The position numbers and the translations under genes are program-made. A stretch of DNA of 51,478 bases from Tabrizicola soli. GTDB taxonomy: Bacteria; Pseudomonadota; Alphaproteobacteria; Rhodobacterales; Rhodobacteraceae. Shown one piece after another: positions 19,128 through 44,245 of the stretch. The notes beneath the pieces were generated by a model. It was not told the origin of the DNA and did no database searches. It saw nothing but the letters and a program-made list of their open reading frames with translations. The stretch is taken from the NCBI RefSeq assembly GCF_015999335.1, contig NZ_JAEACP010000028.1, forward strand, positions 1 to 51,478, read 5' to 3'. Within the stretch, counting starts at the first letter, position 1. Every line of letters starts with the position of its first letter.

Positions 19128-19128
19128 A

Positions 19129-26085: not shown

Positions 26086-26151
26086 AAGGATGCGCGTCGG
26101 AGCTCCGCCGGTCGAATCCGGGTGGCTTGACAGCCTGCAGTCCGTATGTAT

Positions 26152-26192
26152 AAAAACTATATGGGACCTACAAGGCATCCCATATAGTTTTT
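26152..26192 (+). promoter_or_regulatory. Perfect 15-bp inverted repeat, putative operator of the WYL regulator
   Basis: AAAAACTATATGGGA (26152-26166) and TCCCATATAGTTTTT (26178-26192) are exact reverse complements with an 11-base spacer, 22 bases upstream of the GTG start of the regulator. BrxR/CapW-type WYL repressors bind such inverted repeats over their own promoters. The AT-rich arms stand out from the GC-rich surroundings and could include the -10 region. The hairpin could also act at RNA level, but no T-run terminator layout is present. Confidence 0.8.
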
Positions 26193-26213
26193 ACTCTTAT
26201 TCGGACGACTGAT

Positions 26214-27107
26214 GTGAAGTGGAGCGTCGAGCGACGGCTGGAATTCCTCGAGTTCCGCCTGTTCTGGGAGGGCGGTGTAAATCGCGCCGACCTGATCGAG
26301 ATGTTCGGCGTCTCGGTCCCGCAGGCGTCCAAGGATCTGACGCTTTATCAGGAAAAGGCTCCCGGCAACGCCTTCTATGACAAGAGTGCCCGGCGCTATG
26401 TCGCAGGGGCGGGGTTCCGGCCAGTGTTCCTCGACCCCGACCCGGACGCCTGGCTTTTGCGGCTGCGCTCGGCGGCGGAGGGGTTTGCGGATGCGGGTGC
26501 CAACTGGCTCGCCGCCCCGCCCGAAGCCGACATAGCACTGACACCGCGCCGCAAGGTCGATACTGCGGCGCTGCGCGGTATTCTGGCGGCGCTGCGCGAA
26601 GGCGCGTCGCTGGAGATCCTCTACCAGTCGATGAGTCCCGCGCGGCCCGATCCGGTGTGGCGGCGCATTTCTCCGCATGCCTTCGGCTATGATGGTTTCC
26701 GTTGGCATGTGAGGGCCTGGTGCCACGAGACGGGAAAATTCAAGGATTTTCTGCTGCCGCGTGTTCTCGATATCGGAGGGCGCGGTGCCGCAGGCGCCAG
26801 CGGGGAGCAGGATCGGCTCTGGCATGACCACTTCGATATCGTCATCACGCCACACCCAAAGCTATCCGCGGGCCAGCAGGCGGTGGTTGCTCGGGACTAT
26901 GGTATGGTGGATGGGCGCGCCGCGCTTACCACACGCTACGCCATGCTGTTTTACGTTCTCAAACGTCTCGGTCTTTTGGAGGATGCGCGGAGCCGCGATC
27001 CTCGTACGCAGCATATCGTAGCAGAGAGCGATGCGGCGGTCGCCGCAGCCCTCCGTCGGGCGAATTTTGAGTTCGACGAGGCGGGGCAGACAGGCGGCGG
27101 GTCATGA
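26214..27107 (+). CDS. BrxR/CapW-like WYL-domain transcriptional regulator
   Basis: A 297-residue protein with an N-terminal winged HTH (residues 5-50, VERRLEFLEFRLFWEGGVNR and VSVPQASKDLTLYQEKAPG), a WYL domain (about 125-200, LEILYQSMSPARPDPVWRRI then PHAFGYDGFRWHVRAW) and a C-terminal WCX-like domain (HPKLSAGQQAVVARDYGM). These regulators head many BREX, CBASS and other defence operons and respond to infection-linked ligands. The GTG at 26214 is used; the overlapping ATG at 26212 is out of frame. It is 21 bases upstream of the next gene, and the inverted repeat upstream is its likely operator. Confidence 0.88.
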   Translation: MKWSVERRLEFLEFRLFWEGGVNRADLIEMFGVSVPQASKDLTLYQEKAPGNAFYDKSARRYVAGAGFRPVFLDPDPDAWLLRLRSAAEGFADAGANWLAAPPEADIALTPRRKVDTAALRGILAALREGASLEILYQSMSPARPDPVWRRISPHAFGYDGFRWHVRAWCHETGKFKDFLLPRVLDIGGRGAAGASGEQDRLWHDHFDIVITPHPKLSAGQQAVVARDYGMVDGRAALTTRYAMLFYVLKRLGLLEDARSRDPRTQHIVAESDAAVAAALRRANFEFDEAGQTGGGS

Positions 27108-27128
27108 TCTTGGCAAGAGGGTCGTGCG

Positions 27129-30100
27129 ATGCCGGATGAGGTATATCGGGCAAAGGAGCTGCGGGAGTTCTGGCGCAAGCGCAACTGCCCGGGGCCGGAT
27201 GCGCGGCCGATGCACCTCTATCTCTGCGACGACGACGAATATGCGGCTCTGGGACAGTGGCTGAAACCCAGGCTTCAGTCCCGCGCGGTCTCGTCCGGCG
27301 TGGCGGGATGGTTTGCGCTCTGGGCGGTGGAGAGGATCAGGCGTTTCTACGCCGGTGGAGGGCTGACCTGGGCCTTCGTGTTCGCCGGGGTGAGCGTTGA
27401 GCCCGATCAGAGGCAGGCCGCGACGCTTGCGGAAAGAGGATTGCTCTTCTGGCGCCGCCCGCTACGCCGCAGCGCCATGGGCGGCGGCCGGCATTTCCTC
27501 TATTCCCTGATGGCCGAGGGCGGACTGCCGGATGCGCTTCTGGCACGCGAGAGTGGCTACAGCGCGGCGCTGCTGGGGACCATCGCCGACATCGGCGCCA
27601 TGGGGGCCGCCGCGGCTCTGACGATCGCGCGCAGATGGCTGGGCGCCTTGCCGCAGGTTTATCAGGAGGACCAGGCGGCAGAGCTCTTGGCCGAGTTGGC
27701 GCAGGCCATCATCGGCCTGCGGGCCGAGTTGCCCGAAGGCGTCGCCGGCGCACTTGCCGAAAACTGGCTGAACCTTCACCGCCCCGGCTGGGAGGCAGGG
27801 CTTCCGCTTCGGCTGTCTGAGCCGGCGCGCGTCGCGCTGCTGCGGCCGGCCTTATCCGAAGACGACGCCCTGCTTCGCCATCGACGGCAGGTGTCGCAGC
27901 GCCTGCTGCATCGCCGGGCGGACGGAGTTGGCTGGGCCGGGGCGATCCGTATCCCGAACGGGGTGCTGCTTCCCCACGCGATGCTGCCCGTAGCCGCCGG
28001 CCACAGGGTGCTGCGGCTGGTCGCCGAGCAGGGGCCGGTGTTCCGGGCCGTGGCCGAAGCCGAGGGCTGGAGCATCTCTGGCGGCAGGCAGGCTGCGCTG
28101 CTGGCCTTGGCTCCCGACCGTGCCTGCATCCTTGCCGCCTATGCGGATGGCCGGCTGCTGGGAGAGTGCGTCCTGGCTGCCGGCCTGCCATCGCCCGAGG
28201 AGGCACCGACGCTCTGGCGTGCCTCCGCCCCCGGCGATCAGGCGGTGGAGCTGGTCCCGGCATCTTCGCGCGGAACCGCGGCTGGGCGGCTGTGGCTGCT
28301 GGCGCCCGCGGAGGCCGCTCCGGTCTTTTCCGAGGGAGTTCAGGCCGGTGAACCCGAGCCTGCGCCCAACGGGCGGCTGTGGCCGGTCTCCGGCCAAGGC
28401 ACGATCCGCTGCGGCGAGATCACCCTGAAGGTCGAAACCGGCTGCGGCAGGGATCAGGACCCTGCGACACTGCTGCCGCTGGCCGCGACCCTGCGGGGCT
28501 GGACCGCCGAAAACGGGCTGCCGGTGTTCTGCGGCACTCTGCGCTTTCTCGGGCTGCGGGGAGAGCATCCGGCCCGGGATTTGACGCAGCGGGTCCGGCT
28601 GCGCGACATGCGCGGGACGCTGGCCGGCCGGATCGTCGAATGGCCGGATGAGGACGGCGCCTCCCAGGCAAGGGTGGCGCTTGTCGCGCTGCCCACGGGG
28701 TTCTCGTTCGAGATGCGTGAGGCCGGGACTGGCTGCGCTGCGATAAGGGTCGAGGGGCTGCCGGCGGGATGGCATGTCCGCGCGAACGCGGGTGGCCTGG
28801 CCGTCGATCTCGATCCGGCGGTAGGGTCCTTGCTGCTGAGGGCAGGCGACGGCCTGCCCGCCATGGTCACTGCAGTCTTGTCCGATCCTGCCACGGGCCG
28901 CACCCTGCACCTTTCGGCGCCCTGGCCGTCGCGCGATCCGGTGTTGATCGATCCGACCGGCCAGCGGCTGGCGCAGAGCCGTGCGGCTTCCCTCTCCTCG
29001 CTCACGGGATGGCGCGGGGTGGTGCCCGCCGCCGGTGGCGCGCTCGAGCTGCGGATGGCGGGTCGTGCGGTCGGCTTCGGCATCGGCGGAATGCAGCGCC
29101 TTTCGGCCTGGTCCGGTCTCTTGGCGCAAGCCATGGCTCTGGCGGGGGCGGATGGAACGGTCGAGCTCTGTCTGGCCTGCGGGGTGCAGACGCCGCGCCT
29201 GGACCTTCGGCGTTATGACTGGCCCTCCACGCTGCGCGGGGACCGGCTGGAGTTGGGGATCGATCCGGTTCGGCTTCGCGCCATCACCCTTGAACCACCG
29301 CATCTGCTGCGGGAAACCGAAGCCAACGGCGAAATCCGCCTGTCTGACTGGCTGGGCGACCTACCGCAACTCTGGTTCATTCAGGGACGTTCCGAGCGGG
29401 GCGTGATGAGGGCGGAAGCCTGGTCGGCACGGCCCCGGCCGCGGTCCAGCCGCCCGCATCGCATCGCAGCCTATCACGCCGAATTCCGCGCTATGCTGGA
29501 GGATGTGTCGCATCCCGGCTGGGCTCAGTTGATTGCCCTGATCCGCCTGGCGCGCGAGGCGGGGGACGCTGGCGCGCTGGATCAGCTTCAGGCGCTGCCC
29601 GGCGTCCCGGCCATCGCGGTGGCGCTGCTGTTCCGGATGCGGCCGGGCGAGATCGTGCAGACCCTGGATATAGAGACCGAGGCACCGTTCTGGTGGCCAC
29701 TGCTGCCGTGCAATGCCTGGTCGAAGGGCCTGGCCCATGCCAGACGCCATCAGCTGCAACTGCTGGTGCAGGCAGGCCTCGTTGGGCGCGAGACCGAGGC
29801 CTCTGTGGCGGAGGCTGTTCAACGCCGCATCGCCTCGGTCCTGCGGCATCGGCCCGAGTTGAAGGCGCATTTCGGCGTTGCCCTGTTCCAGGCCGGTTTC
29901 TCACCAGTGGCGGGGTCGGGCGACATGCTCCTGCTGGCCCGTGACCCGGAGGCGCGCCTGCTGGAAGCCGCCCGCTCGCTTGCTGCCCGCGCGCCTGCGA
30001 TTCCCCAGGGCGTGACCGGAATCTCCGCTCCCCGGATTGCGGCCCTTGAGGACTTCTCGCCTGATCTGCGTCCGATCCTCGACGCGCCGGTGGCCGCCGC

Positions 30101-30239
30101 AGCCATGGCCGCAAGGGACACACGGCCCGCCGCCGAGGATGTGCTGCGGCTTCTCGCACTCCGCCATGCCGATCCGCAATGGTTCGACGATGCCTTGCCC
30201 CTTGCCCTGCAACTTCTTGCCATGAAGATGTCCGCATGA
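27129..30239 (+). CDS. Large protein of unknown function in helicase operon (1036 residues)
   Basis: A 1036-residue protein with no catalytic motif I can identify. The N-terminal 170 residues (YRAKELREFWRKRNCPGPD; ERGLLFWRRPLRRSAMGGGR; LMAEGGLPDALLARESGYSA) look helical and conserved in style. The middle is beta-rich with few Lys, and the C-terminal 250 residues are helical. Size and placement directly before a DUF1998 helicase recall DruH of Druantia type III and the STY4851/ECs_5259 family; I could not verify homology. Its stop overlaps the helicase start (ATGA), so the two are coupled. It may be a DNA- or helicase-binding subunit. Confidence 0.7.
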   Translation: MPDEVYRAKELREFWRKRNCPGPDARPMHLYLCDDDEYAALGQWLKPRLQSRAVSSGVAGWFALWAVERIRRFYAGGGLTWAFVFAGVSVEPDQRQAATLAERGLLFWRRPLRRSAMGGGRHFLYSLMAEGGLPDALLARESGYSAALLGTIADIGAMGAAAALTIARRWLGALPQVYQEDQAAELLAELAQAIIGLRAELPEGVAGALAENWLNLHRPGWEAGLPLRLSEPARVALLRPALSEDDALLRHRRQVSQRLLHRRADGVGWAGAIRIPNGVLLPHAMLPVAAGHRVLRLVAEQGPVFRAVAEAEGWSISGGRQAALLALAPDRACILAAYADGRLLGECVLAAGLPSPEEAPTLWRASAPGDQAVELVPASSRGTAAGRLWLLAPAEAAPVFSEGVQAGEPEPAPNGRLWPVSGQGTIRCGEITLKVETGCGRDQDPATLLPLAATLRGWTAENGLPVFCGTLRFLGLRGEHPARDLTQRVRLRDMRGTLAGRIVEWPDEDGASQARVALVALPTGFSFEMREAGTGCAAIRVEGLPAGWHVRANAGGLAVDLDPAVGSLLLRAGDGLPAMVTAVLSDPATGRTLHLSAPWPSRDPVLIDPTGQRLAQSRAASLSSLTGWRGVVPAAGGALELRMAGRAVGFGIGGMQRLSAWSGLLAQAMALAGADGTVELCLACGVQTPRLDLRRYDWPSTLRGDRLELGIDPVRLRAITLEPPHLLRETEANGEIRLSDWLGDLPQLWFIQGRSERGVMRAEAWSARPRPRSSRPHRIAAYHAEFRAMLEDVSHPGWAQLIALIRLAREAGDAGALDQLQALPGVPAIAVALLFRMRPGEIVQTLDIETEAPFWWPLLPCNAWSKGLAHARRHQLQLLVQAGLVGRETEASVAEAVQRRIASVLRHRPELKAHFGVALFQAGFSPVAGSGDMLLLARDPEARLLEAARSLAARAPAIPQGVTGISAPRIAALEDFSPDLRPILDAPVAAAAMAARDTRPAAEDVLRLLALRHADPQWFDDALPLALQLLAMKMSA

Positions 30240-33200
30240 CTGCTGCTCCCCGCTCCTCGAACCTCACCAGGGCGCTGGCGCGCATGGCGCATCGTTCGGC
30301 CTCGGCCGCCGTCGCGCGGGCCAGGGTCGCCGATCCGGTGTTGAACCGGGTGCTGCTGCGGCGGCTGGCGGCCGACCCAGGGCATCCCGATTCCCTGCTG
30401 GCGGAACCCATGTTCGAGGCGGCAAAAGCCTGGCAGCCGGCGGAGGCCAGCCTGGACCAGCTGTCGGGCACCCTGCTGGACCCGCTGCTGGTCGATGCGC
30501 TGGACCGCGCGCCCTCCTATCGCATGGAGCGGTCGCTCAGGCCCTATTCCCACCAGCTCGCGGCGTGGAAGGCCAGCCTCCAGGACGGCAAGTCGGTGCT
30601 CGTCACCTCGGGCACCGGCTCGGGCAAGACCGAATGCTTCCTGATCCCGCTGCTGAACGATCTGTTGGCGCGAACCCGGCCGGGTGGGGGAGTGCAGGCG
30701 ATCATGCTCTATCCGCTGAACGCGCTGATCGAAAGCCAGCGAGACCGCCTGGTCGCCTGGGCCGAGGGGCTGGGCGGGCGGGTGCGGTTTGCACTCTACA
30801 ACGGCGATACGCCCGAGACCGCCCGCAAGGCCGGCGAGAAATCGACCACCGCCGAGTTGAAGAACCGCCGCGACATCCGCGACAGGCCGCCGGATATCCT
30901 GGTGACCAACATCACCATGCTGGAATACCTGCTGCTGCGCGAACGGGACCGCCGCCTGCTCGATGCCTCGCAGGGGGCGTTGCGCTGGATCGTCCTGGAC
31001 GAGGCGCACTCCTATGTGGGCTCGCAAGCGGCTGAGATGGCGCTTCTGCTGCGGCGGGTGCGCGCGGCCTTCGGCGTGCGACCCGATCAGGTCCGGCTCA
31101 TGGCCACTTCGGCGACGATCGGCGGTGAGGCGGATGCCGCCGGGCGGCTGGCGGATTTCGTGGCTGCAATGGCAGGACAGGATCTGGCGAAGGTTTGTGT
31201 GATCGAGGGGCGCGAGGCGCCGCTGCCCTTGCCGGACCTTGGCGCGGACGTGCCACTGCTGCCTGATGACATGAGCTGCCAGTCGGACGATGTGCTGTGG
31301 TCCCGTCTGGCGCCGCACCCTCGTATTCAGACGCTTCGGCGCCGGATGGCCGAGGGTGGGGTGCGGCTTGGAGATGCCGCCGATGTGCTGTTCGGGGATC
31401 GTGGTCGGCAGGGGGATGCCCAGGCAGTGCTGGACGCTATGGCGCTGGCGCAGCGAGACGGGCAGCGGCTGCTACCGTGGCGGGCTCATGTGTTCCATCG
31501 GGCGCAAGGCGGCGTCTTCGCCTGTATTGACCCGGATTGCCCGCACAGGGATGCCGAGTTGCGCGAAGCCGGGGCCGCCTGGCCCTTCGGGGCGATCCAT
31601 CTGGTCCCGCGCCCGCTCTGCGGCTGCGGTGCGCTGGTTTTCGAGGTGGTGGCCTGCACTTCCTGCGGCGCGCCCCATCTGCAAGCCTCGCTGATCCCCG
31701 GCGCCCAGCCCCGCCTGGTGCCTCCGGAGGCCGTGGAGGGCGACGATTTCGCCTTGGACGCCGAACCTGACGACAATGAGGAGCCCGTGGCGACTGTCGC
31801 GCTGCTGGCGCCATTGGGTGGCGGTGGTTATCCGGGCTGGATCGGCAGGGAAAGTGGGATCGTCCATCAGAATAGTCCGCCGGAGGGGCAGGCGGTCGTT
31901 CCTCTTTCGGTGATCGAAAACCCCGACCCACGGACCTGTTGCCTCGAAGCCAGGCATTCGCGGCTTCAGGCCCTGCGCTTCGGGCCGGCGTTCTTCCTGG
32001 GTAACGCCATGCCGCAGGCGCTTGAAGAACTCGCCGCACCACAGGGTGAGGCTGGCCTGCCCTCGGCAGGGCGCAGGGCGATCAGCTTCACCGACAGCCG
32101 CCAGGGCGTTGCGCGCCTGGCGGCGAAGTTGCAGCAGGATGCCGAGCGCACGCTGACGCGCGCCTTCCTGTGGCACACCGTGCAGGAGAGGCCGCAGGGC
32201 GGCGATGCCGGGGAAATCGCCAGGCTCGAACAGAGCATCGCAAAGTTCCGCGACCTGGATGCTGATGCCCTTGCCGAGCAGATCGCGGAGGCCGAGGGCA
32301 GGCTTGCCACGCTGCGCGGGCAATCCGTGCCGGTGGTGCGCTGGTCCGATCTCGTCCAGCGGTTCGCGCAGCAAGCGGATTTGCGGTCCTTTGCCGGGGA
32401 GGTGTGGCGCGGTCGAAAAATCTCGGGCTGGCTTGGTGACGATCCCGTGGAGCTGGCGCGGATGTTCCTGTTCCGCGAGATGTTCCGTCGCCCCAAGGTG
32501 CAGAACAACCCCGAGACCATGGGTCTGGTGCGGCTGGCCTTCCCCGAGTTGGAGAAGGCGCTGGTCGAAGCGGGGGTGCCCGATCCGCTGGCCCAGCGGG
32601 GCGTTGATGCCGAAGGTTGGCGCGGGCTGGTGCTCGCCGCGGTGGATTCGGTGTTCCGCGACCGGCTGGCGAGCCAGATCCCGGACTGGATGGTGCCCGT
32701 GGTCTCGCCCCGGTTCGGGCGGCTGAACGTCATCCTGTCTTCTTCGACGCCACGGGAGGACCGTGGCGATGACCGCACCACCAGCTATTGGCCCGGCCCG
32801 GTGCCAACCCAGCGGCAGACCCGGTTGCAAGGGCTGGTCTACGGTCTGTTGCAAGGCGACCCGGCCAATCCGAGGCATCAGGACCAGGCCGCCGAAGTCC
32901 TGGACAGGATGTGGGGGCTGATCACCCGCAACGCCTGTAGCCAGCAGGCGGGATCCGGCAGATGGCGGCTGGACTTCGACCGCAGCGCGGTGACCCGTCT
33001 GAACCGCGCTTGGCTTTGCCCCGTCACCCGCCGGCCCTATGGATGGTCGGTAGCGGGTCGCAGCCCATACAATGTGGCGAGCCCCATGACGGAGCTGCGC
33101 TTCCCCGCGCTTCCCATCGCCAATGCCGGCGGCCTGACCTCGGCCGACCGGCGCGATCTGGCAGCCTGGGCCGAAACCGATACCGAGGTCGCCGCTCTGC

Positions 33201-36200
33201 GCGCCGCTGGCCTGTGGAGCGACCTGCACGACCGCATCGCCGGCTACCCGTCCTTCCTGCGCGCGCAGGAGCATTCAGCGCAGATCGAGCGGCGAGTGCT
33301 GAAAACCTATGAAGAGGCGTTCGATCAGGGGCGGATCAACCTGCTGAACTGCTCGACCACGATGGAGATGGGGGTCGACCTGAAGGCGGTTCAGTTGGTG
33401 GTCAACGCCAACGTGCCGCCCGCGCTGTCCAACTACCGCCAAAGGGTCGGCCGCGCGGGACGCCAGCGCGAACCCTGGGCCTTCGGCTTGACCTTCTGTC
33501 GCGACCTGCCGCTGGACCGGCAGACGTTCCTGGCACCCGGCGCGTTCCTGCGGCGGCCGATCACCGCGCCCAGGGTTTGGTTTGGCAGCGGTCCGCTGGT
33601 GCAGCGGCATGTGAACGCGGCGCTGCTGGGCGCCTGGCTCGCGGCCATGGGCGGGGGCAACATCAAGGCCAGCACCGGATCGTTCCTGGGGGCCGGCCTC
33701 GATGCGGATGCGCCTGCGGTGGATGCAGCGGCGGACCGTTTTCTTGCCGATCTGCGCGGCGACTGGGCCGCGCAGCCGCGACAGCAGGCCCTCGTGCCGC
33801 CGCTTGTGCGCGGGACGATCCTGGAGGGAGAAGATCCGCCGCGCCTGATCCAGCGGACTGCCGAGGCGGTGGAAGGGTTCATTACGGCTTGGCGGCGCGA
33901 ATACCACGAGTTGCTGGATCGCCGCGACGGGGCCGCCGAGCAGGAGGTGGCCGCTGCTTTCCTCCTGCGCGCCAGGCGCATGGCCGGAGAGTTCCTGTTG
34001 GGTGACCTGGCACGTCGGGGCTTTGCGCCGGCCCACGGATTCGCCACCGATGTGGTGACCTTCGACCCGCTGGTGTCGGGCAAGGCGGACGACGATCTCG
34101 ACATCACCTATAACAAACGGGCAGGTGCTTCGCGCGAATTGCACCAGGCGATTCGCGAATATGCACCCGGCAGCGAAGTCGTGATCGACGGGCTTGTCTA
34201 CCAGAGCGAGGGCGTCAGGCCCGCTTGGGGCGCGGATGCCGACGCCACCGGGCTGGAGGATCTGCAAACCCTGTGGGAGTGCCGCTCGTGTCAGGCTTTC
34301 GGTCTGTCGCGCTCGGCGCGCCCCGAGTCGTGCCCGGATTGCGGTGCGGTCGGGCTGCACGGCACCCAGATTCTCCGCCCGGCGGGCTTCCTGACCCGCA
34401 AGGCGCCGCATACCGGCTATGAAGCCCTTGCCCATACGCCTTTCGAACCCGCCAAGGTCTCGGCCCGGGGGGCGGGCTGGACTGTGCTGCCGAACCCTTC
34501 TGCAGGGCGCTATCGGCACGATCCGGAAGGGCAGGTCCTGTCCCGCTCGTCCGGCCGACTGGGCGGGGGCTATGCATTGTGTCTGTGTTGCGGCCGGGCC
34601 GAGCCCATGCAGGCGCCGGAGCAGGGTTTGCTGGCCGAGTTGCCGAAGGCGATCCGTCGGCATTTTCCGCTGGCCCGAAGCAAGACCACCCGGCTGACCC
34701 ATGATGGCTATTGCCCTGGCGGCTATACTGAGCCGCATCGGCTGCAACGGCATCTCCACCTGGCCCATAATACCCGCACCGACGTGTTCGAGATGCAGTT
34801 GCCGCTGTCAGTGCAGGTGCCGTCGGGACTGGCGCTGGCGGCGGCGCTGCGCGAGGCCCTTGCGGAACGGCTGGGGGTGGAAAGCGGCGAGATCGGTGTG
34901 AGCGCCGGGCCGCGGCAGGGCGCCAGTGGCGAGCCGCGGGTTTCCATATGGCTGCATGACCGGGCCGCCGGTGGGGCCGGGCTGACGGCATGGCTGGGCG
35001 AGGCCGGAATGTTGCGGGCCATGATGCGGCGCGCGGCAGAGCTGCTTGTCTGCCCCGAGGGCTGCCTGCGCGGCTGTCCGTCCTGCATCCTGCAACCGGA
35101 TCTCAGCCAGTCCGGCATCCGGCTCGACCGTCCAGCCGCAGCCGTGCTTGCGCAGACCATGGCGGAGGGCATCGCCCTTCCGGATGCGCTTTGCGTCTTC
35201 GGCCCGGAGACAAGGTTCCTGGGCCAGCCGATGACCGGGCGAATTGGCCAGTTGGCGATGGCCGGGGGGCTGCGCCGGCTCCGCGTCTATCTCCACGGAA
35301 ACCCGGCCGACTGGGACCTTTCGCGCTGGTCGCTCGCCGATGACCTTGCACGCTGGCGCGCGTCAGGCGCCGTGGTCGAGCTTTGCCTCGACACTGCGGC
35401 GCTGACCAGTGCTGGTTTCGATCTGGCGGTCCGGCTGTCGCTTTATCGCCTTGTCGGCGCGGCACGTTTGTTCCGGCTGGAGGCACTGCCCCATGCGGGC
35501 GGCCTGCCGGTGGTGGCGGTTCTTGAAACCGCCACCGGGCAGGAAGCCTTTGCCGTCTCGGAGGGAGCGGAAGCCCTGCCCGGGCGGGAGTGGGCTTCGG
35601 GCTCGGGTGGTCCGCTGATGGCCGGAGAATGGAATATGCAGGAGGTAGGAGCTGAACTGTCGCTCGACCGGCTGATGCAGCTTGCCACGGGGTCGGGCCG
35701 GGTCATGACTCCGGGTCCGGTTCTGGATGGACCGATCCAGGGATTCGGGCAGCGCTTCTGGGCGTGGCTGGCCCAGATGGTTCCGCTCGATCTGGCAGCG
35801 TTCCAGCGGCACGGGCTTCAGGAAATCCACTATACCGACCGCTATCTCCTGACGCCGGTGGCGCTGATGCTGGTGGCGCGTGTTCTTGCTGCGGTGCCGG
35901 GTGCCAAGACAGCGCGGCTGCGGATCGACCTTGCGCCGAATGAAGACCGGCGCGGGCCGAAGGACCATCCGAAGGTTTTCGACAGCTACGAGGATGACCG
36001 GATGCGCGTCGCGGTGCTGCGGGCACTGTTGCCGGCCGCGCAGTTGGAGTTGGCCGCGCGCCGAACGGCGCTTCCACATCGGCGCGAGATGCGGTTCACC
36101 TTGGCGGATGGCCGCAGGTTCCGCCTGCTTCTGGATCAGGGTCTGGGAGCATGGCGGGCGGAAATCAGCGGCGGCGGGCAGGATATGCGGCACGATTTTC

Positions 36201-36295
36201 AGGCTGCGGCGGAGAGCCAGGCGGCAGCCCTGTCCCGGTCCAAACTACACGTCGCTGGTGGGGAAGAGCCCATGGTCTGGGAGGCGCTGCCATGA
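30236..36295 (+). CDS. Giant DEAH-box superfamily 2 helicase with DUF1998 C-terminus (DruE/DrmA/DpdJ-like)
   Basis: A 2019-residue protein. Motif I TSGTGSGKTE (K131), motif II DEAH (255-258, VLDEAHSYVGSQAAEM), motif III MATSATIGG, motif V region STTMEMGVDLKAVQLVVNA, motif VI RVGRAGRQRE (about 1070-1079). The C-terminal DUF1998 has the four-Cys cluster CPEGCLRGCPSC (C1606, C1610, C1614, C1617). Further CxC/CxxC sites near 461-475 and 1348-1370 may form zinc ribbons. Such helicases are the ATP-driven cores of Druantia, DISARM and Dpd systems. The ATG at 30236 overlaps the previous stop, with a small gene coupled at the end. All helicase motifs are intact. Confidence 0.93.
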   Translation: MTAAPRSSNLTRALARMAHRSASAAVARARVADPVLNRVLLRRLAADPGHPDSLLAEPMFEAAKAWQPAEASLDQLSGTLLDPLLVDALDRAPSYRMERSLRPYSHQLAAWKASLQDGKSVLVTSGTGSGKTECFLIPLLNDLLARTRPGGGVQAIMLYPLNALIESQRDRLVAWAEGLGGRVRFALYNGDTPETARKAGEKSTTAELKNRRDIRDRPPDILVTNITMLEYLLLRERDRRLLDASQGALRWIVLDEAHSYVGSQAAEMALLLRRVRAAFGVRPDQVRLMATSATIGGEADAAGRLADFVAAMAGQDLAKVCVIEGREAPLPLPDLGADVPLLPDDMSCQSDDVLWSRLAPHPRIQTLRRRMAEGGVRLGDAADVLFGDRGRQGDAQAVLDAMALAQRDGQRLLPWRAHVFHRAQGGVFACIDPDCPHRDAELREAGAAWPFGAIHLVPRPLCGCGALVFEVVACTSCGAPHLQASLIPGAQPRLVPPEAVEGDDFALDAEPDDNEEPVATVALLAPLGGGGYPGWIGRESGIVHQNSPPEGQAVVPLSVIENPDPRTCCLEARHSRLQALRFGPAFFLGNAMPQALEELAAPQGEAGLPSAGRRAISFTDSRQGVARLAAKLQQDAERTLTRAFLWHTVQERPQGGDAGEIARLEQSIAKFRDLDADALAEQIAEAEGRLATLRGQSVPVVRWSDLVQRFAQQADLRSFAGEVWRGRKISGWLGDDPVELARMFLFREMFRRPKVQNNPETMGLVRLAFPELEKALVEAGVPDPLAQRGVDAEGWRGLVLAAVDSVFRDRLASQIPDWMVPVVSPRFGRLNVILSSSTPREDRGDDRTTSYWPGPVPTQRQTRLQGLVYGLLQGDPANPRHQDQAAEVLDRMWGLITRNACSQQAGSGRWRLDFDRSAVTRLNRAWLCPVTRRPYGWSVAGRSPYNVASPMTELRFPALPIANAGGLTSADRRDLAAWAETDTEVAALRAAGLWSDLHDRIAGYPSFLRAQEHSAQIERRVLKTYEEAFDQGRINLLNCSTTMEMGVDLKAVQLVVNANVPPALSNYRQRVGRAGRQREPWAFGLTFCRDLPLDRQTFLAPGAFLRRPITAPRVWFGSGPLVQRHVNAALLGAWLAAMGGGNIKASTGSFLGAGLDADAPAVDAAADRFLADLRGDWAAQPRQQALVPPLVRGTILEGEDPPRLIQRTAEAVEGFITAWRREYHELLDRRDGAAEQEVAAAFLLRARRMAGEFLLGDLARRGFAPAHGFATDVVTFDPLVSGKADDDLDITYNKRAGASRELHQAIREYAPGSEVVIDGLVYQSEGVRPAWGADADATGLEDLQTLWECRSCQAFGLSRSARPESCPDCGAVGLHGTQILRPAGFLTRKAPHTGYEALAHTPFEPAKVSARGAGWTVLPNPSAGRYRHDPEGQVLSRSSGRLGGGYALCLCCGRAEPMQAPEQGLLAELPKAIRRHFPLARSKTTRLTHDGYCPGGYTEPHRLQRHLHLAHNTRTDVFEMQLPLSVQVPSGLALAAALREALAERLGVESGEIGVSAGPRQGASGEPRVSIWLHDRAAGGAGLTAWLGEAGMLRAMMRRAAELLVCPEGCLRGCPSCILQPDLSQSGIRLDRPAAAVLAQTMAEGIALPDALCVFGPETRFLGQPMTGRIGQLAMAGGLRRLRVYLHGNPADWDLSRWSLADDLARWRASGAVVELCLDTAALTSAGFDLAVRLSLYRLVGAARLFRLEALPHAGGLPVVAVLETATGQEAFAVSEGAEALPGREWASGSGGPLMAGEWNMQEVGAELSLDRLMQLATGSGRVMTPGPVLDGPIQGFGQRFWAWLAQMVPLDLAAFQRHGLQEIHYTDRYLLTPVALMLVARVLAAVPGAKTARLRIDLAPNEDRRGPKDHPKVFDSYEDDRMRVAVLRALLPAAQLELAARRTALPHRREMRFTLADGRRFRLLLDQGLGAWRAEISGGGQDMRHDFQAAAESQAAALSRSKLHVAGGEEPMVWEALP

Positions 36296-36423
36296 CAATG
36301 GCCTGCCATCGCCAAGATCGAGTCATGATCAGGCGCGAAGGGGATACGGGTGGTTGTCGCCCGGCATGGTGTGCAATCTGTGGCCGGACAGAGGGATTGG
36401 GAGGTTTGCTTGAATTGGCGTGA
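36292..36423 (+). CDS. Putative 43-residue coupled peptide in the operon
   Basis: ATG 36292 overlaps the helicase stop (ATGA), the same coupling used elsewhere in the operon, and the frame runs 43 codons to TGA 36421-36423. It begins MTMACHRQDRVMIRREGDTG and ends CAICGRTEGLGGLLELA, with a CxxC pair. It overlaps the N-terminal codons of the ATPase gene. It could be a real small subunit, or a leader frame that carries ribosomes to the ATPase start. Confidence 0.35.
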   Translation: MTMACHRQDRVMIRREGDTGGCRPAWCAICGRTEGLGGLLELA

Positions 36424-39400
36424 TGATGTTGATGCCGGTTTGACCCCTGGGCTTCTCAAGGAAATCCTCCAGATCGTTCCCAGCGACCGGCGCACTTTTG
36501 CCGAGTATTTCGATTTTATCGACAAATCTGAAAGGATGAATGACGATCTTTTCTACTCTGCCTTGCTCGACCGTATCCAGACCAGCGACGACTGGTGCCG
36601 GTCTCTGGAGGCCGCCTTCCAGAAGTCCGCGCGTGAGAAGGAGCGGCAGCGCGCGCCTTCGATGAAGATCGGGAAATGGCTGCGGAACAATGTTCCCAGC
36701 TTCGGCTCAGCGCTGCCGGAAGGTGAAAGCGTTGCGGACGGGAAGATAGAAGAAATTCTGGCCACGATGACGCCGCTTCAACGCCAGGTCTTCGATCTGG
36801 CGGGCCGGTTTGGCGGCGGCAAAGGCAAGCACCAGGAGCCTGTGTTGGCGGATGCCGTTATGGACAATGAAGGCGTTGGTATGAAAAGGGAGCCGATGCC
36901 CGTGGCAGCGGAAAAATGCGGCGGGGGAGAGCCGACGTGGATGACGCTTCGCGACAGGCTTCGATCGGCGCTGGACGGGCTGACCGAGGCTGACACTGAT
37001 GCAGCCTCGGACATCTTGAACTTGGCCAAAGACCTTCAGGTCGCCTGTGCGGAGCATCAGCGCGAGGCCGCCGCCCGCGACAGGCTGCTGCTACAAGGAC
37101 GGCGCGCGACTCTGCTGGCCGCCCTTGACAGTCTCGCCGATCTTCCGGGCGGGGCCGACCTTCTGGCGAAGGTCGGCGCGGTCGACGACCCTGACATCCT
37201 TGACAGGGCCGAGGAGGCCGTCGCACCCCTGCTGGCGGCAGTTGCCGACTTGGACGTGGCTGCCGTGGCCCTTGCCGACGCGGCCGGGGCCGAGCGCGAT
37301 GCGCGGGCGGATCAGGGCCTCAGCCGTCCCGAAGTTCGGGCCGCGATGGACAGGCTTGACCGGACCGAAGCGGCCGAACAGACGGCCCGGAGCAGGCTGG
37401 AGGCAACCCTGCAAGATACGTTGCGGGTATTGGATTTCTCAAGGACACCGCCCGCCGAAATCCCCGCGGTCGAAGCGGAGGAACTCGTCGCTAAGCAGGA
37501 CGTTCAGGTCCGATTGCCGGAAGACACCGTGCCGGAAAGGCCAGAAGAACCGATAGCTGAAATCCTGCCCCGGCCGGAGCAGGAGCCCGCAGCCGAACCT
37601 CTGCTGCCCGAGGCACTGGCGGGAGGCACGCCGGAAGCGGAGGCCGAGGAGCTTGCCCGGCTCGCGGCGATCTTCGAAGACCCGCCGGAAAGTCCGGTCG
37701 AACCCGACCCTTCGGAGGCGGAGGTCGATCTGAAGGATGAGTCCGTGGCAGTCTGGACGGGCCGTAAATCGCTGGACGATCTTCTGGCGGATTACCTTGA
37801 CAGGGGCGAAGCCGCTCTGGCCTGGCACCTGGCCGATCTGGCCGAGGAGGCGGGGCACATTCCGCCGATCCCGCCGCTGCTGATCCGGGCGCTGGCCGCA
37901 GGTCCGGCGATCGCCGGTCCCTACGATCAGTCGACCCAGGCGATGGGCGAACTTCTTGCCGCCGCCATGTCGGCGCTGGAACGGGCGGAAGAGGCCGGAC
38001 CCGTCGCCAGCCAGCGGGCGCGTGGCATTGCGCTGGCCGCGCTCATCCGCCCGGCCTTGATGGCCCGCGACACCAATGCGCGCGACCTCCTGGCGAACCT
38101 GAGGCTTCCCGGCACCCTGTCGGGCTATGCAGGTGTTGTCGCCAGCCTGACGGGGCTGCGGCACGATCTTCAGCCCGGGATCGCGGAACTGGCGGCTTTG
38201 GCCGGGGTCGAGAAGCAGCGCCGTGTGCCACAGGCGCTTGCCGATATCCAGGATTGGCTCCCCCGCGCGCGAGCGGCTCAGGGTCCCCATGCGCCCTCCA
38301 ACACGATCCTGCACATCCTGCTTTCGGCAGGGCGTGATCTCGGCGGCCTGTTCGAGGCCGTGCTTCGCGACGATCTGCACGCCGTCGAGCACGGTCTGGA
38401 TTTTCTGCAACGGCTGGCTGGCGGTCGGGCCTTCGCGGAACAACTCATCTCTGCCGAGGAAAAGGCCCTCAACCGGCCTCGCAGCGATGCGATCCGCGGC
38501 ACCGCTCTGGACTGGATCTGCCGCAGGTTGCACGATGGCGCTGAACTGGTTCTCCGCTGGCGCACCGCCCGGCACGAGGACGGCATTGTCGACGACCGCC
38601 GCAAGGAGGACCTGCGGCGCCATGTCAGCGGCCTGCGCAAGGAACTGGAGCGGGTGGCGGGCGGCGCGGATGCCGACAGCGGGCTCGATGCCGCTGTGCA
38701 GCGTTGCGTGAATCGCGCGGTCCGGGACCTGATCACCATACTCGATGGTCAGGCCGGAAACACGGTGGCGATCCGCATCTCGGACGCACTGGACCTTGCT
38801 CTGCTGCGCCTGCCCGGCGACTGCCAGCCTTGCGCCCCCGACGACGACGCCTATGCCACCGAACGGATGCTTCAGCGCTCGCGGCTTCTGGCGGCGCTGT
38901 CGGCGCCCGAGACGGTGGCGGCGGATGAGGTCACGGCGCTGCGCCAACACCTTGCGGATCATGCGCTTCGGCCCGCCCGGCAGATCCTCGACCGGCTTCA
39001 GCGCGACGGCACGCTGTCCGAGGCGGAGCTTGCCGGTATGCGGCAAGAGCTGGAAGAGGCGCACCACGCCGCCGTTGCCCAGGCGGAAAGCAGGATCAGG
39101 TCGCTGCGCCACGAGATGGAACCTCTGCAAAGCATCGACCTCAGCACCTCGCAGGAAATCCAGCGCTGGCTGGACCGGCTGTCGCTGATTCTCGCCGCGC
39201 TGTCCCGCAGGCCCGAAGCCGGTCCGGTCCTGCCCATGCGCGACGGCCAGCGTGTACCCGACATTCCCGCCGATTTCCCGCAGCTTGCCGGAGTGCTGGA
39301 CGACGGGCGCCAGTTGCGCGATTCGGTGCGCGCGCAGATCATGCAGGAGCAGGAGGGGCGGCTGCGCAGCCTGGTCGACCGCTATCAGGCCGAGGGGCGG

Positions 39401-42283
39401 ACCGAACTGGCCGACCAGGCGGACCAGATCATTGCAACGTTGGGTGACAGGGATCTTCTGACCGTCGAAGACCTCCTGATCCGGTTGCAGAATGGTCAGA
39501 ACCCGGCGCTAAGCGATGAGGACGAGGAGGATCACTTTTCCCGCTTCTATCCCGGTTTCGTTTTGGCACTGAACTCGGCCGATGTGGGTGGCGGAAAGAT
39601 CCCGCCCGCCATCGACAGCGGCGGCATACTGGGGCCGCTGGATTTCTCGGTGCTGGACGAAGGTGAACGGAAACGCTCGGGGCAGCTGTTTGAGAACTGG
39701 CGCGCACTGAAGAATGCCATGAACCCCAATCGGACCGATCTGGGCCAGTCGCTGCGGCAGTTCATGGAACGGCTGGGTTTCACCTCGGTGGGCATCGAAC
39801 GGGAAACCGTTCTTTCGGCGCAGTTGCGCACCATGCGGATGCGCTGCGACGAGCTGACGGCGCAGCGCTGGTTCCTGCCGCCCGCTTTCGGCAGCGAAGC
39901 CCGCGGCAGTTATCCCGTGTTCCTGGCCAGCGGCAATATCGATGACGAGCAGGTGACGCGCGAACTGGCGAAGGTGGGACGTGACGCCCCCTGTATCCTC
40001 CTGGTGTTCGGCACCCTCACAAAGGCGCGGCGCGAGAATTTCGCCTTGGCCATGCGCCGCGCGAAACAGACCGTGCTGCTGATCGACGAGGCCCAGGTGC
40101 TTTTTCTGGCAATGGGCACCTCGTGGATGGAGCGGCTGTTCTCCTGCGGGGCACCTTTCGGCTATCTGCAACCTTATACGACCAGCGCGGGCAGGATTCC
40201 GGCCGAGATGTTCTTTGGACGCGAGGAAGAGATCGCCAATATCGAATCTGCCACGACGGATGGCTGTCTTGTATACGGCGGACGGCAACTCGGGAAATCC
40301 GCGCTGCTGCATCATGTGCGCAAGAGGTTCCACCAGCCCCTGACCGGGCGCCACGCCTATTACCTGAAGATCGATGAATACGGCGGTCAGGTGCAGGCGG
40401 CCGATCAGATCTGGTCGCTCATCCGGCGCGAACTCGCCTCGGACCAGATCCTGTCCCGCACGGCCGAGAATGCCGACGATATCCGTGACGGCATCCGCGA
40501 CTGGCTTGACCGGAGCGGCGAGCGCCGCATCCTGCTCTTGATCGACGAGGCCGACATGTTCCTGGCCTCCGAGGTTCGCAGTGGATTTCCGAACCTCAAC
40601 CGCCTCAAGGACATGATGGAAAGCTCGGCGCGGCGCTTCAAGGTGGTCTTCGCCGGGTTGCATAACGTCCAGCGGATGGCAAAGGCGCCGAACTCCCCGC
40701 TTGTCCATCTGGGGAAGCCGATCTGCATCGGGCCGATGAACACCACCAGCAAAAGCAGCCTCCAGGCCCGCCGCCTGGTGACCGAGCCGATGCGGGCGGC
40801 CGGCTTCGCTTATGCCTCGCCCGATTTGGTCCAGGCAGTGCTGACGCGAGTGAACTATTATCCCTCGCTGGTGCAGGTGTTCTGCAAGGCCCTGCTGGAA
40901 GGCATCTCGAACCAGCCGAGGCCGCGGGGGCAGGGGCCGCGTTGGGTGCTGGAGAAGGACAACCTCTTCGGGAGCAACGAGGACATCAACGACCAGATCC
41001 GCGAGCGCTTCCAGTGGACGCTGAATCTGGACCCCCGCTACGAGCTGATCGCCAAGGTGCTGGCGCTGTATCGGCTTGACAGTGCCGAGCGCGACGGTGG
41101 TGCCATGGCGCCCCAGGCCATCACCAGGGAGGTGGAGGGCTTCTGGCCGCGCGGTTTCGAGAGGCTGCCGCCAGAGGATTTCCGTGCCTTCCTGGACGAG
41201 ATGGTCGACCTTGGTGTTCTGATACGGCTGGGGCCGGGTATGGGCACCTATGGATTGCGTGGAGCGCAGGTGGCCCAGATGCTGGGCCAACGCGAGCAAC
41301 TGGAGCATGAGATCCTCCAGATTGCCGAAAAGGAACCGAGGGTCGACTATGACGCCAGCTTCTACCATCGCCGCTCACGCCCCGATCAGTCGGATCGCCG
41401 GTCGCCGCTCTCGGACAATGCCCTGCAGAAGCTGTTCGATACCGATTTGCCTGGGCTCCGCTTCCTCGCGGCGCCTCCGGGCATCTGGGGAACCGATGTG
41501 GCACGGGCCGTGGCCGAACTGGCCGAGGGCTGGCAGGACAAGAAGGGGCTTCTGGCCGGCACTATGCTGACAGGAGCCGAGGATGAACTCCGTCGGCAGG
41601 TTGAGCGTGGAAACGGGCGGCGGGTGCTGGTGATCCCGGCAGGTAGCAAGGGCGCATCCAAATGGGCTGCCTGGCTGGCTGAGCGCGACCAGGTTCGACA
41701 GGGTAATGTGCTTCCCGTATTCGTCGGGTCGCATGAGCAGATTGCCCAGGTCCGGCCCACGGTCGGGTCGGGTATCCCTGCCCAGGTGTTCCACGCTCGA
41801 CCGTGGGAGCGGAACATGTTGCGGGCATGGCTGGTGGAAGCGGGGCTTCAGGCGCTGGACACCGCCGAATGCCGTGATGCGCTGCTTGAGATTTCAGGTG
41901 GCTCGCCCTTCCTGCTGGGCGAGTTGCGCCCTCAATTGGAAGCACTGGTGTCGGGGCGGCGCAGTGAAGGTATCGGGGATACCATTCGCCAGATGGGCGG
42001 GGACTTCGACCTTAAACCCGCCGAAGCCGGCCTGCCCGCAAGCTTGGTGCCGGAATTCTGCACCGCAGTGGAGCTGCTGCAGCTGGGCGAGGAGCGGAGC
42101 GTTCTGGTTGAGTTGCTGGTCGGGGAAGGAAACGCCGACGCAGACCAGGACCTGAGGCTCATGGAGCGGCTGGGTTTGTTCCACCGGCCCGACCCGCAGC
42201 GCCCGGAGTGGATAGCCTGTTCTGCCTTGGGCGCGTTGGTGTTCAAGGCCTGCGAGCGGCCGGTCAGGGGTGGCGGGCGCTGA
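36350..42283 (+). CDS. Giant P-loop ATPase of unknown function (1977 residues)
   Basis: Residues 20-100 (WRDDVDAGLTPGLLKEILQI, ERMNDDLFYSALLDRI) form a compact helical domain, possibly an adaptor. Residues 170-1150 are largely helical with an acidic, Pro/Glu-rich linker near 385-460. The C-terminal third holds the NTPase: FFGREEEIANIESA, Walker A GGRQLGKS (1310-1317, K1316), Walker B ILLLIDEADMF (D1399, E1400), then winged-helix-like and helical repeats. A second DEA motif (VLLIDEAQVLF, D1246) lies before the P-loop. The domain order suggests a STAND/AAA sensor-type ATPase. The GTG at 36350 has GAAGGGG 6 bases upstream; TGATG couples it to the HEPN gene. No named family recognised. Confidence 0.8.
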   Translation: MVVARHGVQSVAGQRDWEVCLNWRDDVDAGLTPGLLKEILQIVPSDRRTFAEYFDFIDKSERMNDDLFYSALLDRIQTSDDWCRSLEAAFQKSAREKERQRAPSMKIGKWLRNNVPSFGSALPEGESVADGKIEEILATMTPLQRQVFDLAGRFGGGKGKHQEPVLADAVMDNEGVGMKREPMPVAAEKCGGGEPTWMTLRDRLRSALDGLTEADTDAASDILNLAKDLQVACAEHQREAAARDRLLLQGRRATLLAALDSLADLPGGADLLAKVGAVDDPDILDRAEEAVAPLLAAVADLDVAAVALADAAGAERDARADQGLSRPEVRAAMDRLDRTEAAEQTARSRLEATLQDTLRVLDFSRTPPAEIPAVEAEELVAKQDVQVRLPEDTVPERPEEPIAEILPRPEQEPAAEPLLPEALAGGTPEAEAEELARLAAIFEDPPESPVEPDPSEAEVDLKDESVAVWTGRKSLDDLLADYLDRGEAALAWHLADLAEEAGHIPPIPPLLIRALAAGPAIAGPYDQSTQAMGELLAAAMSALERAEEAGPVASQRARGIALAALIRPALMARDTNARDLLANLRLPGTLSGYAGVVASLTGLRHDLQPGIAELAALAGVEKQRRVPQALADIQDWLPRARAAQGPHAPSNTILHILLSAGRDLGGLFEAVLRDDLHAVEHGLDFLQRLAGGRAFAEQLISAEEKALNRPRSDAIRGTALDWICRRLHDGAELVLRWRTARHEDGIVDDRRKEDLRRHVSGLRKELERVAGGADADSGLDAAVQRCVNRAVRDLITILDGQAGNTVAIRISDALDLALLRLPGDCQPCAPDDDAYATERMLQRSRLLAALSAPETVAADEVTALRQHLADHALRPARQILDRLQRDGTLSEAELAGMRQELEEAHHAAVAQAESRIRSLRHEMEPLQSIDLSTSQEIQRWLDRLSLILAALSRRPEAGPVLPMRDGQRVPDIPADFPQLAGVLDDGRQLRDSVRAQIMQEQEGRLRSLVDRYQAEGRTELADQADQIIATLGDRDLLTVEDLLIRLQNGQNPALSDEDEEDHFSRFYPGFVLALNSADVGGGKIPPAIDSGGILGPLDFSVLDEGERKRSGQLFENWRALKNAMNPNRTDLGQSLRQFMERLGFTSVGIERETVLSAQLRTMRMRCDELTAQRWFLPPAFGSEARGSYPVFLASGNIDDEQVTRELAKVGRDAPCILLVFGTLTKARRENFALAMRRAKQTVLLIDEAQVLFLAMGTSWMERLFSCGAPFGYLQPYTTSAGRIPAEMFFGREEEIANIESATTDGCLVYGGRQLGKSALLHHVRKRFHQPLTGRHAYYLKIDEYGGQVQAADQIWSLIRRELASDQILSRTAENADDIRDGIRDWLDRSGERRILLLIDEADMFLASEVRSGFPNLNRLKDMMESSARRFKVVFAGLHNVQRMAKAPNSPLVHLGKPICIGPMNTTSKSSLQARRLVTEPMRAAGFAYASPDLVQAVLTRVNYYPSLVQVFCKALLEGISNQPRPRGQGPRWVLEKDNLFGSNEDINDQIRERFQWTLNLDPRYELIAKVLALYRLDSAERDGGAMAPQAITREVEGFWPRGFERLPPEDFRAFLDEMVDLGVLIRLGPGMGTYGLRGAQVAQMLGQREQLEHEILQIAEKEPRVDYDASFYHRRSRPDQSDRRSPLSDNALQKLFDTDLPGLRFLAAPPGIWGTDVARAVAELAEGWQDKKGLLAGTMLTGAEDELRRQVERGNGRRVLVIPAGSKGASKWAAWLAERDQVRQGNVLPVFVGSHEQIAQVRPTVGSGIPAQVFHARPWERNMLRAWLVEAGLQALDTAECRDALLEISGGSPFLLGELRPQLEALVSGRRSEGIGDTIRQMGGDFDLKPAEAGLPASLVPEFCTAVELLQLGEERSVLVELLVGEGNADADQDLRLMERLGLFHRPDPQRPEWIACSALGALVFKACERPVRGGGR

Positions 42284-43311
42284 TGTCCGTTTCGGTGCCG
42301 GAAATCTGGGCGTTGCCTGCGCCGGGTCAGTTTCTGGCTGAGGCCGAGGCGGCGGCCCTCAGGGGCGGGGCGGTCCTTGCGCTGGATGCCTCTACCCCGC
42401 GTGGCCTTGCGGCGGAACTCTCACGCCGGTTCCAGAGCAGCCACAGCGCCCACCGGCTTCAGCCGCAGTCCGGGATTCCGCCGTTGCCTGCGCTGGCGGA
42501 TCTGGTCGGTTGCGAGGGCGGGCTCGGGGTCCTTGTGGCGGCTGCCGACCAAGTGGTGATCGTCGAGGGTGACGATCTGCCCTTCGCCGATCTCGAGGCG
42601 TGGAAGATCTTCCTGCACCGCTTCGGCCGGGAACGGGCGCAGGTGGGAAATGGTCTGGCGATCCTGTTCCTCGGCCCGGCGGGCTTCGGCGCCGAAGGCC
42701 TCGGGCGGATCGAATGGACGGGACGGATGAGGCGACTGGATGCGATGATCTGGGCCGAGTTCCATGTGCCGTCTGGTCGCTCGGGCCTGTTCCAAGATCT
42801 TGCAGTGAATCTGGCCGCCGAGTTGTGTGGCTGGCGGCTGGACCTCATCGCCGATCTGGTCACCCAGCGCGAGGAGGACATCCTGTCGCCCCTCGGCTGG
42901 CTCCGCCGGAATGCCGATCGGCGCCAGGATTTCGAGGTAAACTATGGCACCCGTGGTTTTTACTGCCCGGTGCATCTGCTATTTTCGGGCCAGATGAAAG
43001 AAATCGAACTGCGGATATGGCGGGCGCAGCTGTCGGCGTTGTTTCCCTGGATCGAGGAGCATCGGTTGCGGATCATCGACCGTTATCGCAAGTTCCTGCG
43101 CATCGACGACCACCTACGCAAACTGCAGGTGAACGACGTGGAAAATATCGAGCTGGGTGCTCTGAGATTTCAATTGCGCCCGTATCTTCCCCGCAACGAG
43201 CTTGAACATATCGAGGCGTTGGCGTCGATGCGCAACGACCTTGCCCACCGCAAACCCGTGGACCCGCAGAAGTTCAGGCGCGCGCTGGAGATTTCCGATA
43301 CGTTACGTTAG
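42283..43311 (+). CDS. Terminal operon protein with C-terminal HEPN-like RX4H motif
   Basis: A 342-residue protein. The first 200 residues look like an alpha/beta domain without a visible P-loop (GGAVLALDASTPRGLAAELS; LGVLVAAADQVVIVEGDD). The last about 100 are helical and contain IEALASMRNDLAHRKPVD, with R317 and H322 spaced as in the RX4-6H active site of HEPN ribonucleases, preceded by a helix (ELEHIEALAS) as usual for that fold. HEPN domains cut RNA in many toxin and abortive-infection systems. The start overlaps the ATPase stop (TGATG), so they are cotranslated. The RNase role is inferred from one motif. Confidence 0.7.
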   Translation: MSVSVPEIWALPAPGQFLAEAEAAALRGGAVLALDASTPRGLAAELSRRFQSSHSAHRLQPQSGIPPLPALADLVGCEGGLGVLVAAADQVVIVEGDDLPFADLEAWKIFLHRFGRERAQVGNGLAILFLGPAGFGAEGLGRIEWTGRMRRLDAMIWAEFHVPSGRSGLFQDLAVNLAAELCGWRLDLIADLVTQREEDILSPLGWLRRNADRRQDFEVNYGTRGFYCPVHLLFSGQMKEIELRIWRAQLSALFPWIEEHRLRIIDRYRKFLRIDDHLRKLQVNDVENIELGALRFQLRPYLPRNELEHIEALASMRNDLAHRKPVDPQKFRRALEISDTLR

Positions 43312-44223: not shown

Positions 44224-44240
44224 GGGGGACCCGAACGGAG
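44224..44240 (+). repeat. 17-base repeat upstream of RT (partner 45564-45580)
   Basis: GGGGGACCCGAACGGAG just before the RT start; GGGGGACCTAAACGGGG occurs 53 bases after the RT stop. They match at 14 of 17 bases in the same orientation. They may be the borders of an RT cassette or parts of its RNA. Confidence 0.4.
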
Positions 44241-44245
44241 AACAT

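Follow-up and report, generated by a model that had tools for sequence, protein, structure and literature searches.

The window, by which we mean the whole stretch of 51,478 nucleotides that was analysed, contains a five-gene operon made up of a known system, Druantia type III, and an apparently undescribed STAND-HEPN module built from known parts. The interpretation to which we incline, with slightly more confidence than doubt, is that of a regulated composite anti-phage operon in which Druantia III is combined with a portable module, formed by a giant STAND-type ATPase and a HEPN partner, that would itself contribute to defence.

According to the open reading frames of the window, all five genes are open and are located on the + strand between positions 26214 and 43311 (Table 1). 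The regulator and DruH3 genes are separated by 21 bp, the DruH3 and DruE3 genes overlap by 4 bp in an ATGA sequence (30236-30239), a gap of 54 bp follows the DruE3 gene, and the ATPase and HEPN genes overlap in a TGATG sequence (42281-42285). The initial annotation had described five nearly abutting genes on one strand, and the gaps and overlaps that it gave were exact; likewise, K131 of DruE, K1316 of the ATPase and R317/H322 of the HEPN protein are where it had placed them. The length of 1977 residues for the ATPase depends on a GTG start; a database record of the same protein begins at the TTG at 36410, 60 bases further in, which gives 1957 aa and a gap of 114 bp after the helicase gene. 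When the window was compared with loci L002, L003 and L004, dN/dS ratios of 0.07-0.43 were obtained where dS was finite; since dS was saturated (1.25-2.98, and infinite twice), these ratios do no more than agree with purifying selection.

Table 1. Features of the operon and its upstream repeat, with positions in the window
Feature	Position	Strand	Details
Putative inverted-repeat operator	26151..26193	.	16-nt arms, 11-nt spacer, 20 bp before regulator start
CapW/BrxR-family WYL transcriptional regulator, 297 aa	26214..27107	+	Pfam WYL 35 bits; PDB 7tb6, 7t8k
DruH3 (YjiT family), 1036 aa	27129..30239	+	PADLOC DruH3, NCBIfam YjiT_fam, PDB 9tud
DruE3, YprA-like DEAH helicase with MZB, 2019 aa	30236..36295	+	PADLOC DruE3, PDB 9tu7
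Giant STAND/ORC-type ATPase (predicted), 1977 aa	36350..42283	+	Pfam AAA_22 41.5 bits; AF2 model
Predicted STAND ATPase core and winged helix (residues 1273-1663)	40166..41338	+	Walker A GGRQLGKS at 1310-1317
HEPN partner, 342 aa	42283..43311	+	AAA+-like domain lacking Walker A (about 1-215) and HEPN-like helical tail
Candidate HEPN motif RNDLAH (R317, H322)	43231..43248	+	residues 317-322 of HEPN partner

The PADLOC profile for DruE3 (PDLC00037) scored 1849.6 bits over profile positions 6-2043 of 2055, and the match covers residues 29-2029 of the 2038-aa ORF, including the C-terminus. The protein also matched the solved Druantia structure 9tu7 (E 9.9e-245). Its DEAH motif is at position 255, and K131 was read off the translation, as the strict GxxxxGK[ST] pattern does not fit DruE. 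For DruH3, the PADLOC profile (PDLC00039) gave 121.7 bits with a best stretch of 276 aa, the score against NCBIfam YjiT_fam was 240.5 bits (cut-off 150), and the DruH structure 9tud was matched over residues 11-248 (E 6e-18). Judged by these matches, the regulator, DruH3 and the full-length DruE3 are Druantia III proper and not new. The initial annotation had noted a likeness to Druantia III, which was right but understated, since the DruE3, DruH3 and YjiT_fam matches identify an actual Druantia III system. Passages of PMC13192584 describe DruH as a likely sensor with a dimer-dependent nuclease and DruE as a helicase that forms dimers and bears two PLD domains at its C-terminus; they also report congruent trees for the two proteins.

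The product of the fourth gene is, on the evidence of its structural model, a STAND/ORC-type ATPase. The AF2 model of residues 1100-1977 (pLDDT 87.2) has a predicted STAND-type AAA fold with a winged helix, and the folds closest to its core are STAND/ORC ATPases, followed by NLRs and CED-4; the secondary structure of the model includes a further C-terminal alpha/beta stretch. What we take to be the Walker A motif, GGRQLGK[ST], is present in 31/31 rows of ATPase sequences, the window having the lysine at K1316, and in the presumed Walker B motif the D, E and D of DE.D are invariant in alignment A3. Pfam gave AAA models only, with no domain in the N-terminal part of about 1100 aa, and there was no match to any PADLOC family, to DUF499 or HmaC, or to 50,697 phage records. 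The viral structure library gave no match at E<=0.001. At least 1182 relatives were found at E<=0.001 among 7989 scored candidates.

The partner protein of 342 aa is probably an RNase, in which an AAA+-like domain lacking a Walker A motif precedes a HEPN-like tail. We base the HEPN assignment on a candidate R..H motif and the predicted helical tail. The RNDLAH sequence, which we presume to be the HEPN R..H motif, agrees with the Rx4-6H pattern of the HEPN superfamily, and R317 and H322 are invariant in alignments A2 (29 rows) and A6 (17 rows). R[NH]xxxH lies within the last 75 residues in 46/46 rows of A2 and A6 together, with the window counted twice and A6 being a hand-picked set that excludes the three HEPN hits without the motif (L040, L036 and L064). 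When all HEPN hits including the window are considered, 43/46 carry R[NH]xxxH; of the other three, L036 and L064 are truncated by the end of their contig, but L040 is not. A Walker A pattern occurs in just 1/46 partner rows. The model of the protein (pLDDT 94.5) shows C-terminal helices; the AAA+-like half took up the results of the fold searches, and its matches are modest, one being at E<=0.001. The Pfam HEPN match of the window protein falls below the cut-off, HEPN_Swt1 was touched by 2/17 diverse members, and no PDB entry was matched significantly in a profile search with the tail (best E 0.49). A profile comparison did not support homology of the HEPN protein to the C-terminal half of the ATPase (hhalign probability 0.2 percent).

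The regulator is similar over nearly its full length (249-277 aa matched) to CapW (PDB 7tb6, E 1.6e-59 over residues 2-278 of 297) and BrxR (PDB 7t8k, E 2.6e-41), and a perfect inverted repeat with arms at 26151-26166 and 26178-26193 lies upstream. These results bear out the class assigned by the initial annotation, a BrxR-like WYL regulator. The half-site CTATATGGGA has two matches in the window with at most one mismatch, both in this inverted repeat, where 0.45 are expected, and counts of at least two were also obtained in 8/100 shuffles. At the same place in L109 there is a degenerate repeat scored as 84 percent complementary, and another in L110 was seen by eye alone, without a score; L111-L113 showed no equivalent inverted repeat at that place. 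BrxR, as described in parts of PMC9122601, binds inverted repeats and represses. As the regulator belongs to the same class, expression of the operon is probably kept down as long as there is no infection. The likeness to the BrxR/CapW repressors treated there consists of the sequence match and the upstream inverted repeat, whereas the BrxR site described in that source has a spacer of 5 nt instead of 11 nt.

The distribution of the genes was analyzed in 80 genome loci, which are the best of 516 relatives by similarity to the window and hence not a random sample. An iterated profile detected the HEPN partner in 45/80 loci from 13 phyla by record title, so the conserved co-occurrence of the ATPase and HEPN genes, for which the initial annotation had proposed a search, does exist. 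In the ATPase tree, L011 is labelled Acidobacteriota but is the neighbour of a Rhodobacteraceae locus, so that the phylum given for some assembled genomes may be incorrect. Where the two are separate genes (44 loci), the distance from the ATPase stop to the first HEPN residue matched by the profile is -26 to +53 bp in 42, the exceptions being L040 (3.7 kb, a hit without motif) and L061 (0.9 kb); in L080 both proteins are in one frame.

A DruE gene, scored by a profile built from the DruE of the window, is located directly upstream on the same strand in 9/80 loci (L002, L003, L004, L005, L008, L009, L010, L011 and L012). DruH is visible in eight of these, L011 beginning inside DruE; it is incomplete in L009 and in two frames in L005. 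Compared with 5/390 genomes having DruE3 anywhere, the 9/80 corresponds to a rough P of about 1e-6, with kinship ignored. In that order-level sample, the ATPase was found in 5/390 genomes and DruE3 in 5/390, two of the latter being fragments (G256 and G188, viewed in their short loci only); both genes occurred together only in the window's genome, and a close profile found the HEPN gene in 1/390. Viral contigs contributed four loci, of which L099 has the order DruH-DruE-ATPase-HEPN with DruE in pieces and three are distant.

Other arrangements also bring the pair near Druantia genes. It precedes DruH-DruE in L067 and is convergent with a DruE relative in L041 and L071, and in L006 a Druantia II system, with DruG2 (84.2 bits) and a full-length DruE2 (2158.6 bits), stands before a two-frame ATPase and HEPN. 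Upstream of the ATPase of L020 are a WYL gene and a type I methyltransferase (775 bits). On a plasmid of Azospirillum oryzae (L093:2362-12132), a 3256-aa protein fuses pPIWI-RE (X, MID, RNaseH) to the ATPase core, and the gene that follows it gave a HEPN hit. Another 19/80 loci contain a conserved three-gene set, here called the F2 set, in which F2, a protein of some 1039 aa, and a DruE-like helicase precede an ATPase without HEPN; in L018:260-14362, one of the 19, these are F2 (1039 aa), a DruE1/DruE3-like helicase (1645 aa) and the ATPase (2004 aa). A relationship of F2 to DruH was not supported (profile hhalign probability 0.2 percent). Nine cyanobacterial loci of the 80 have a helicase of a PLD-SNF2 family (F3) and no HEPN, while L046 and L059 are F3 loci that do carry HEPN; the F2-set and F3 families were identified on L018 and L047. 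One cyanobacterial ATPase relative (L042:7289-14482, 2398 aa) has N-terminal sigma-70 regions 1.2, 2, 3 and 4 and adjoins a PLD-SNF2-family helicase. Neither HEPN nor a listed helicase partner was found in 7/80 loci: four of these run into the end of a contig, 436 bp remain in L039, and more than 9 kb of sequence is present in L075 and in L049, where the ATPase is in pieces. Seven flanking genes of L038, L045, L057 and L062 matched no recognised defence family in Pfam, which, like the ATPase relatives lacking HEPN, counts against the composite anti-phage reading.

The 19/80 F2-set loci and the nine cyanobacterial F3 loci, in which ATPase relatives accompany helicases without HEPN, would suit a DNA-binding ATPase that acts as an ORC/TnsC/MuB-like loader for helicases, the HEPN protein then being a structural subunit or regulator and no killer RNase; ORC, TnsC and MuB are indeed among the fold matches. 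However, STAND, NLR and CED-4 folds rank at the top as much as ORC does, and the HEPN R and H do not vary within A6, which is what a catalytic role would predict. We consider the loader function quite unlikely.

The relation between the Druantia genes and the STAND-HEPN pair was assessed by correlating pairwise distances (mirror analysis) in the eight loci that hold all four genes. DruH and DruE are co-inherited (r=0.93), as are ATPase and HEPN (r=0.90), whereas correlations across the pairs were 0.22-0.40. Without L009, which has the fragmentary DruH, the values were 0.96 and 0.89 within the pairs and 0.39-0.66 across them. Identity between L003 and the window is 67 percent for the ATPase and 52 percent for DruE. 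In 6/6 other DruE3 loci opened there was no ATPase or HEPN hit, the downstream sequence covering over 8 kb in G306, G016, G556 and G435, 1.7 kb in G466 and 0.7 kb in G461. The strong correlation within pairs, the weaker one between them and the occurrence of each pair alone point to two separately inherited modules. The region was therefore rejected as one undescribed system, the reading of the initial annotation, given the DruE3 loci that lack the pair and the mirror analysis; it is better described as two modules that are each co-inherited as a pair and are more weakly tied to one another.

For the same reasons, we regard as very unlikely a single integrated machine in which this variant of Druantia III would depend on the ATPase and HEPN proteins as necessary components. 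The overlapping operon layout, the single regulator and the order conserved in 9/80 loci would agree with such a machine, but the mirror analysis ties the modules weakly, an additional small ORF separates DruE from the ATPase in L010 and L012, and L103 (genome G306) contains DruH and a close DruE relative (2141 bits against the window's DruE) in a genome in which no ATPase or HEPN was found. The weaker tie and the Druantia III loci without the second module argue against an obligate joint machine, and in the six other DruE3 loci opened the ATPase and HEPN genes did not form part of Druantia III.

The weak correlation across modules (0.22-0.40 over the eight loci) and their occurrence alone could reflect two independent systems that happen to be neighbours in a defence island, in which case the ATPase-HEPN pair would be a self-contained abortive system that does not communicate with Druantia; regions rich in defence genes are a common setting of Druantia III loci, as stated in sections of PMC13192584. 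This is rather unlikely in our judgement, because the placement of DruE directly upstream on the same strand recurs in the 9/80 loci and in viral contig L099, other Druantia arrangements and Druantia II are found elsewhere, and the cross correlations rise once L009 is omitted. The ATPase tree, a quick one with SH-aLRT supports only, also speaks against independence: a mostly Druantia-linked branch of 17 rows (support 93), in which 11 rows have DruE3 upstream, forms with the F2 branch of 24 rows, which have DruE-like helicases, one 41-row clade (SH-aLRT 99). On this tree, the state "DruE3 directly upstream" changes four times, or seven times when other nearby arrangements are counted, including L038 with a DruE-like ORF (158 bits) about 5 kb off. 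The pair was thus joined to Druantia several times or re-paired.

According to our preferred reading of a composite operon, the STAND-HEPN pair is probably a backup abortive layer. The CapW/BrxR-type repressor would keep expression low, and infection would relieve this repression. Druantia III, comprising DruH as sensor and nuclease and DruE as helicase-nuclease, would then attack phage DNA. The long N-terminal part of the ATPase is a probable sensor or docking region and its C-terminal STAND core may act as a nucleotide-driven switch; the partner would dock through its degenerate AAA+-like domain and carry the HEPN RNase. If infection continued, or if DruE activity exposed a ligand of the ATPase, the ATPase would bind ATP and assemble, clustering the HEPN tails into active dimers whose RNA cleavage would stop the cell.

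More generally, we propose, with a confidence somewhat short of even, that the pair represents an unnamed, phylum-spanning defence module in which an NLR-type switch is combined with an RNase docked by a pseudo-AAA adaptor. It may have been plugged in repeatedly behind Druantia II and III, type I restriction-modification and pPIWI-RE as a second abortive layer. Sister ATPases may drive helicase effectors (a DruE-like helicase plus F2, or PLD-SNF2) and have interchangeable sensor heads, including pPIWI-RE and sigma-70 regions 1.2 to 4.

GTA/prophage tail genes flank the operon on both sides (9480-20094 and 45925-49344 of the window), as do DUF2793 genes whose DNA is about 70 percent alike. GTA_TIM, to the left, is split over two frames, in line with the decayed neighbours mentioned in the initial annotation. 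Just upstream of the operon (23047-24481), a DnaC-like gene and the C-terminal domain of a transposase form what we take to be a probable IS21-type remnant. A reverse transcriptase gene follows the operon at 44024-45511 (PADLOC RT 127.5 bits, UG17 profile 113 bits), and no Rfam RNA reached the gathering score around it (43200-46200). The window ends, 1-130 and 51349-51478, form a 130-bp inverted repeat with 99 percent identity, perhaps an assembly break at a repeat.

If our reading is correct, Druantia III, a recently explained DNA-targeting defence, is tied to an NLR-like ATPase and a probable RNase, and the idea of a backup layer is directly testable. The spread over 13 phyla with changing partners would provide a model for the rewiring of bacterial NLR-like switches between sensors and effectors. 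Rhodobacter capsulatus DSM 1710 (L004) has the DruH, DruE, ATPase and HEPN genes and may thus offer a tractable laboratory host; no WYL relative was found in that genome.

A full-length match of all genes to one named system, which the initial annotation had named as grounds for giving up novelty, was obtained for the Druantia genes and not for the ATPase and HEPN genes. The latter have no family name in PADLOC 2023 or NCBIfam, in keeping with the earlier claim that they fit no known system. Among PDB chains, sequence searches with these two proteins returned nothing but a coiled-coil chain (E 6e-05) and two chains at chance level (E 0.53), which were rejected as relatives. The pair is unnamed in the PMC main texts searched. 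The word HEPN is absent from the main text of the Druantia papers PMC12458937 and PMC13192584, and the ATPase-HEPN combinations described in portions of PMC12839542 and PMC3710099 (DUF499/Hma) and of PMC11090510 (CoCoNuT) differ from the one found here. It is on these grounds that we describe the operon as a known system joined to an apparently undescribed module.

The window shares with Druantia III the co-inheritance of DruH and DruE reported in parts of PMC13192584, and differs by the addition of the CapW/BrxR-type regulator and the two-gene STAND-HEPN module. STAND/NLR-like defence ATPases, such as AVAST and the CARD-NLR-like LypABC, have the STAND core, Walker A motif and winged helix in common with the window ATPase, and LypABC, as outlined in sections of PMC13236601, likewise has a Walker-less ATPase domain as the partner of an Orc1-like ATPase. 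Unlike in those systems, the likely effector here is a HEPN protein acting in trans, and the ATPase has the long N-terminus without Pfam domain, the extra C-terminal alpha/beta stretch and no PADLOC match. Hma/DUF499-centred BREX-related systems, according to passages of PMC12839542 and PMC3710099, also bring together at a single locus an ORC/STAND-type ATPase, a helicase and a HEPN of the Swt1 type. However, their HEPN is fused to the DUF499 N-terminus and a methyltransferase is one of their core components, whereas the window has HEPN as a separate gene, an ATPase without a DUF499 or HmaC match and no methyltransferase among the matches listed for the five proteins (for DruE, the best 25 of 38). 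Finally, CoCoNuT systems resemble the operon in having a motor NTPase and a HEPN effector, and they often share a superoperon with other systems, Druantia III among them, but the relevant parts of PMC11090510 describe McrB-like GTPases and CnuE (wHTH plus HEPN), whereas the motor here is an ATPase of the AAA_22/STAND type.
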